From Phormidium tenue FACHB-1050 (GTDB taxonomy: Bacteria; Cyanobacteriota; Cyanobacteriia; Pseudanabaenales; Pseudanabaenaceae): DNA of 64,000 bases. Each line of letters opens with the position of its first letter. Positions within the stretch are counted from its first letter, which is position 1. The position numbers and the translations under genes were made by a program. Location of the stretch: positions 1 through 64,000 of the forward strand of contig NZ_JACJQY010000016.1 of assembly GCF_014696925.1 (NCBI RefSeq), read 5' to 3'. Of this stretch, positions 27,046 to 27,508 are shown piece by piece. The notes under the pieces were generated by a model. It did not search any database, was not told where the DNA came from, and worked only from the letters and a program-made list of their open reading frames with translations.

Positions 27046-27070
27046 GTTCAAAATATTGCGAAGCAATATT

Positions 27071-27154
27071 TATAGCAAGTAATGGCGGCGCAAAGCGCAG
27101 CTATTACTTGCTATGAAACAAAAAGACCTAGCCATTGGCTAGGTCTTTTTGTTT
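27071..27154 (+). terminator. Hairpin repeat followed by strong bidirectional terminator
   Basis: At 27071-27114 a TATAGCAAGTAATGGCGGCG palindrome (imperfect) resembles the GC-core family. At 27116-27154, AAACAAAAAGACCTAGCC-ATT-GGCTAGGTCTTTTTGTTT is a perfect rho-independent terminator with U-runs on both strands. It would end ychF on the plus strand and the short transcript from the minus-strand promoter near 27434. Confidence 0.85.
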
Positions 27155-27254
27155 CGGAATATTTTAGGATCTTTAGGTCACAGTCAACTGCTGGAAGGAT
27201 CTCAGGTTTACTAGGAAATTAGGCTAGAGAACTAGAGATAATTAACTAAATACC

Positions 27255-27329
27255 TTACAGAACAGCTCCAGCACACAGCTCGGAAACCTGAAGACCCACA
27301 CGTTTACCGTTACTACTATCTGATTGCAT
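27255..27329 (-). CDS. Possible 24-residue peptide gene
   Basis: On the minus strand a perfect ribosome site AGGAGGTGAT (27334-27343) ends a few bases before an ATG that opens a 24-codon frame. The product begins MQSDSSNGKRVG and ends SELCAGAVL, then TAA. The first part is polar with Lys-Arg, the end is small/hydrophobic with one Cys. The frame is too short to be judged by length, but promoter (27411-27439), ribosome site, frame and terminator (27116-27154) together form a complete transcription unit of roughly 290 bases. I do not recognise the peptide. It could be a signalling or membrane-active peptide, a leader peptide, or part of a dual-function small RNA. Confidence 0.5.
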   Translation of the reverse strand: MQSDSSNGKRVGLQVSELCAGAVL

Positions 27330-27410
27330 GGGCATCACCTCCTGTTGTCTAAATGTTTATTATCAAGTGTGATTTGGCTTGAAACCAAAGGTTTATTCAG
27401 CCTGTGATGT

Positions 27411-27439
27411 AATATAACTGACAAATCAAAATTTGACAA
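27411..27439 (-). promoter_or_regulatory. Sigma-70-type promoter of the short peptide unit
   Basis: Read on the minus strand, TTGTCA (complement of 27434-27439) and TATATT (complement of 27411-27416) are separated by exactly 17 bases. Transcription would start near 27404 and give a leader of about 75 bases before the small frame's ATG. Confidence 0.55.
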
Positions 27440-27454
27440 TAGCAATCTTGAAGC

Positions 27455-27508
27455 AACTTTCAGAGAAGTAAGGGCAATTCATGAATTGCCCCTACTTCTC
27501 TGAAAGTT
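27455..27508 (+). repeat. Palindromic repeat containing GGGCAATTCATGAATTGCCC
   Basis: AACTTTCAGAGAAGTAAGGG pairs with its complement around a CAATTCATGAATTG centre. It sits just beyond the 3' end of the channel gene on the minus strand and may act as its terminator. The centre recurs at about 32347-32376, 37762-37790 and 48550-48609. Confidence 0.7.

Follow-up and report, generated by a model that had tools for sequence, protein, structure and literature searches.

The question raised by the minus strand between positions 27115 and 27439 of the window (the whole 64,000-nt stretch of DNA that was analysed) is whether selection there maintains a very short peptide or an RNA. An earlier note had described a complete miniature transcription unit for a possible 24-residue peptide, and each of the parts that it listed is present. 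The promoter is formed by a -35 box, TTGTCA (27434-27439), and a -10 box, TATATT (27411-27416), separated by a 17-nt spacer and matching the consensus at 10 of 12 positions. Placing the start site by the -10 box predicts an RNA of about 289 nt (27116-27404), and the ATG at 27329 sits approximately 75 nt past that start, the leader length that had been given. The ribosome-binding site AGGAGGTGAT (27343-27334) ends 4 nt upstream of the start codon of the 24-codon frame MQSDSSNGKRVGLQVSELCAGAVL, which together with its stop occupies 27329-27255 (codon 24 at 27258, TAA at 27257-27255), and the unit is closed by an intrinsic terminator hairpin at 27155-27115. Consensus scans are weak evidence when taken alone; five promoter-like sites were found in the region versus 1.9 +/- 1.3 in shuffles, and one terminator-like site versus 0.6 expected. 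The promoter and terminator calls are strong because comparison within the genus conserves these parts with sharp outer edges: 21 same-genus loci retain both promoter boxes with the distance between them (the -35 box being TTGTCA in 19 and TTGCCA in the other two) as well as ribosome site, frame and terminator, and the alignment breaks off directly upstream of the -35 box and directly downstream of the terminator. The unit is present in a single copy in its own genome.

The genes that flank the unit vary. Upstream there is psbD in many Nostocales-type loci (28 counted), cobB in another group (13 loci) where it ends about 50 nt before the ATG, nadC in a third group and, in Pseudanabaena, a ClC-type channel gene. 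Downstream there is often a pterin dehydratase-like gene followed by a porin, and in the window there is a convergent ychF. Given such varying neighbours, we consider the RNA to be free-standing. That it is the leader of the downstream gene was rejected as a general explanation, since downstream genes vary and the Pseudanabaena ychF is convergent and lies beyond the terminator. Across many genera (loci L001-L204) the downstream order is RNA, pterin dehydratase-like gene, porin, Rrf2-type regulator, cysK and a DnaJ-like gene. Two repeats border the unit in the window. A palindromic repeat around GGGGCAATTCATGAATTGCCC (27463-27508) lies directly upstream of the promoter, and its core recurs at many sites in the genome (most of 81 matches); a second inverted repeat, AGCAAGTAATGGCGGCGCAAAGCGCAGCTATTACTTGCT (27060-27114), lies between the terminator and ychF, and similar sequence is found at that position in locus L008.

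Very likely this locus represents the Sye_sRNA1/ncl0160 family of sRNAs in its Pseudanabaena-type form, as an independently transcribed, single-copy RNA about 290 nt long. The identification follows from the match of gene context and frame to the published descriptions, the comparison having been made by description only. The ncl0160 family is attributed to Mitschke 2011 and Brenes-Alvarez 2016. Sye_sRNA1, an RNA of approximately 200 nt verified by Northern blot, is more abundant than any other sRNA in S. elongatus UTEX 2973; it has 53 homologues with a conserved structure, sited downstream of psbD or cobB, including TU475 in Synechocystis 6803 and TU2045 in strain 6714, and relatives of the RNA are among the most abundant non-rRNA transcripts of model cyanobacteria (PMC6091082). 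For ncl0160, a frame of 23-25 amino acids with a ribosome site was reported in 83 genomes, with an ATG start and a TAA or TAG, rarely TGA, stop, and Brenes-Alvarez 2016 already proposed that a peptide is translated from it (PMC4734099). The psbD and cobB contexts were found in relatives of our locus, as were the conserved frame, the ribosome site and the same stop codon usage. Our locus shares with Sye_sRNA1 its free-standing character, its conserved structure and, in relatives, the psbD/cobB contexts, and differs in its ClC-type and ychF neighbours and its terminator sequence. The finding is largely already known; what is added here is the placement of the ORF within a hairpin and the evidence for the RNA as the main object of selection. 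The Sye_sRNA1 paper treats the molecule as an sRNA and its main-text discussion does not take up the short frame (PMC6091082), while the main text on ncl0160 takes up neither the frame's place in a covarying hairpin, as one of its strands, nor the missing third-position bias (PMC4734099). Rfam 15 contains no family whose covariance model matches the RNA at gathering score. 6S RNA (RF00013), like this one an abundant rod-like bacterial RNA, gave no match at any E-value up to 5 in sub-threshold scans, and a known Rfam RNA (6S, tmRNA, RNase P or a riboswitch) was rejected on these scans.

The earlier note had named lack of frame conservation in related strains as a refutation of its reading; the frame is in fact conserved across the genus and in many families. 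By blastn the block is present in all 23 sampled genomes of the genus (its own included) and in genomes from 7 of 15 other families; the ribosome site, the ATG and 23 or 24 codons recur in many other cyanobacterial families, and in most sampled families of Cyanobacteriia the frame has 23-24 codons (17 in some lineages). The pattern GGAGGTGATGCCCATG...TGYGCNGGNGC matched at least 114 contigs, and the organism names among the matches listed were all cyanobacterial. A covariance model (R1) of the 3' half only, with the frame not included, had a single match in each of 111 genomes out of the 386 from the phylum; of these, 109 belong to the same class and two are marginal matches elsewhere. No copy was found in 61 genomes of the Prochlorococcus/marine Synechococcus-type family (that of G023), where the best match had an E-value of 0.04. 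Loci that were recovered through the 3' half, with no use of the ribosome-site pattern, still have a ribosome site and a frame. Among 198 distinct loci (a count whose filter removed L094, with 22 codons) all have an ATG and a ribosome site; the frame has 23 codons in 154, 24 in 33, 17 in 10 and 25 in one, and it ends in TAA in 105, TAG in 88 and TGA in 5. The ribosome site, complementary to the 16S 3' end over at least 10 bases, is near invariant, although some lineages (L235-L244) have a shorter or changed version. The loci recovered through the 3' half include family f5 (L240 and L241), in which an entirely different spacer precedes the start codon (GGGAGGTTCCTGCGG-ATG) and the peptide reads MPDSSSCKGRQVGFSRLCAGAVL. 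Conservation across the class rules out a chance frame.

If the peptide were the main product, an excess of third-position changes in orthologues would be anticipated, and this was the check that had been proposed. We ran it on 22 codons in 123 frames, using as a control the neighbouring pterin-4a-carbinolamine dehydratase-like gene from nearly the same genomes. Counted by simple parsimony among related sequences, on trees from the same short region and with an assumed transition weight, changes at codon positions 1, 2 and 3 numbered 131, 139 and 162 in the frame versus 636, 425 and 1536 in the enzyme gene, so that no excess was found. The dN/dS-like ratio was 0.70-0.79 for the frame versus 0.12-0.47 for the control. 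Per 22 codons there were 61 synonymous changes in the frame versus 314-352 in the control, and 128 amino-acid replacements versus 113-429, a replacement count on a par with that of the most conserved stretch of the control gene. Changes are therefore even across codon positions because synonymous change is suppressed and not because replacement is fast, and the test shows a dominant constraint at the RNA level while leaving room for a functional peptide. We attribute the lack of a third-position excess to base-pairing of codons 9-23 with the 3' half of the molecule. Synonymous variation is almost absent at Ser, Gly and Leu codons. Codons 3-6, which are unpaired (27329-27305 and relatives), read GAnAGTAGTAAA with almost no synonymous change, and AGC accounts for 1 of 244 Ser codons; this suggests that the GAnAGTAGTAAA stretch may have a sequence-specific role. 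From these comparisons we conclude that most of the sequence conservation serves the RNA, with selection acting mainly at that level.

Some constraint on the amino acids does exist, as synonymous outcomes are slightly preferred when a site has changed (162 versus 148 expected, P 0.005). Premature stops are depleted (3 reconstructed versus 11.8 expected, P 0.001), every indel seen in the frame has a length divisible by three, and the position of the stop tracks indels across the class. Translation is likely, given that the frame stays open and keeps its ribosome site, its start and its stop. Families f12 and f32 have a stop (TGA or TAG) at codon 18 and retain the 3' half; in the truncated f32 clade the old codon-24 stop was lost in most genomes, and it is still TGA in L281 and in family f12. 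Release of the old stop after truncation was considered as proof of translation and holds in part, given the TGA kept in L281 and f12. Translation of at least codons 1-17 has probably been maintained. What stood of the proposed peptide-coding unit is an independent, conserved transcription unit with a probably translated frame; the peptide as its main point did not, for want of a third-position excess.

What the conserved nucleotides appear to build is a 220-290-nt structured RNA, and on comparative grounds the unit is such an RNA and not mainly a peptide gene. Using RNAalifold on 48 divergent full-length RNAs (set A1), with pair counts made on the named structure, we found a long hairpin, or rod, in which codons 9-23 pair with GAGTTCCTCCCGGCAGTCAGGTTTCAACCTGAAGACCC 3' of the stop; the family terminator stem, CTAnACCGCTC...GAGCGGATAG, comes after it. 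In the window RNA the rod pairs codons 11-24 (27258-27297) with the 3' strand GAGATCCTTCCAGCAGTTGACTGTGACCTAAAGATCC (27167-27203), the placement being based on family covariation and the window fold and, for the 3' strand, also on the genus alignment. Within the rod 95.9% of cells are paired and both sides have changed in 24 of 45 pairs; doubly changed cells number 180 versus 50.1 +/- 9.5 in shuffles and 16-37 with the partners slid. This covariation shows what we take to be a selected RNA structure, clearly conserved. The window RNA folds computationally to the same rod (-84.6 kcal/mol, z -3.98 versus 200 shuffles), and the RNA of L036 has a fold z-score of -6.06. A stem of the form CTAnACCGC...GCGGATAG (L036, 1458-1716, and other relatives) is nearly invariant throughout the class, which is unusual for a terminator; in Pseudanabaena the class stem is fully replaced. 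In L014, from 1570 onward, an 11-nt direct duplication begins at the stop codon of the frame, and the frame is intact.

A second, local hairpin competes with the rod. In the family it pairs the start-codon region GATGCCCATG with codons 7-10 (90% paired); in the window the nascent fold and family consensus place its 5' arm, GCCCATGC, which includes the start codon, at 27326-27333 and its 3' arm, GTGTGGGT, corresponding to codons 10-12, at 27294-27301, overlapping the 5' strand of the rod. Its arms are invariant and it shows no covariation in the family alignment. In all 10 of the loci folded, the start region is computed to be less open in the nascent 5' part on its own than in the complete RNA.

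A plausible scenario, to which we give an even chance, is that this is a ribosome-gated regulatory RNA whose rod would be opened and closed by translation of the frame, the peptide being at most a secondary product. In this working model the nascent 5' end would at first sequester the start codon by folding it against codons 7-12; once the rod is complete, codons 7-12 would be withdrawn and the start site freed; ribosomes loading at the extended site would translate the frame; and each translating ribosome would then open the rod, the opened or closed state giving the regulatory output. The gating step may not be universal, because the alternative hairpin is invariant and is not kept in every lineage, being missing in L240 and L241. 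More tentatively, the selected trait might be the act of translating the first ~17 codons through the RNA's own hairpin and not the peptide, with ribosome availability setting conformation and activity; we lean somewhat against this stronger form. In hok-type toxin mRNAs, a local 5' hairpin versus long-range refolding governs access to the ribosome site. The likeness here lies in that alternation, which in our case is computed; the differences are that neither a hydrophobic toxin frame nor an antisense RNA was seen and that there is a single chromosomal copy. The dual-function RNAs SgrS/SgrT and SR1/SR1P are likewise sRNAs with a short frame, which is translated in those systems, but in SgrS the frame lies apart from the pairing region whereas here the frame is one strand of the main hairpin.

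We consider it unlikely that the RNA is a true micro-protein mRNA, whose function would lie in the 23-24-residue peptide, the rod doing no more than control peptide synthesis or the stability of the RNA. This is the view reached by Brenes-Alvarez 2016 (PMC4734099), and the conserved start, ribosome site, open frame and stop, the widely shared core SS..G....LCAGAV, the indels in threes and the slight synonymous preference are all consistent with it. However, the residues that are conserved are those encoded by paired or invariant nucleotides, trinucleotide AGT slippage can account for some of the 3n indels, some lineages lose the last six residues yet retain the 3' half, and the codon data (no third-position excess; Ser, Gly and Leu codons almost fixed synonymously) argue against it. 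Quite improbable, in our estimate, is a ribosome sponge or decoy that by virtue of very high copy number and a perfect extended site captures 30S subunits, or ribosomes stalled at the rod near codon 9. The near-invariant complementarity to 16S RNA, the abundance of relatives (PMC6091082) and the fact that the stable rod begins right after the footprint of an initiating ribosome would fit such a role, but a decoy has no need to keep stop codons and an open frame downstream, and the site is shortened or altered in L235-L244. A plain base-pairing sRNA with an incidental frame is very improbable: it would account for the strong RNA-level conservation, unpaired GAnAGTAGTAAA segment included, and the C/U-rich 3' strand TTCCTCCCGG could meet mRNA ribosome sites, but the frame, start and stop are kept class-wide with the stop tracking indels, premature stops are depleted, and most f32 genomes truncated at codon 18 have lost the old codon-24 stop.

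The relatives of this RNA are reported to be highly abundant in model cyanobacteria, yet it matches no Rfam 15 family and no function for the Sye_sRNA1/ncl0160 RNA was found in the literature searched. Its architecture, with one strand of a covarying hairpin supplied by the frame, a competing hairpin at the start site and, in some lineages, a truncated frame with the hairpin kept, offers concrete mutants that would separate the contributions of peptide, translation and RNA structure. If the ribosome-gated reading is true, the most abundant sRNA of many cyanobacteria would be a device operated by ribosomes.
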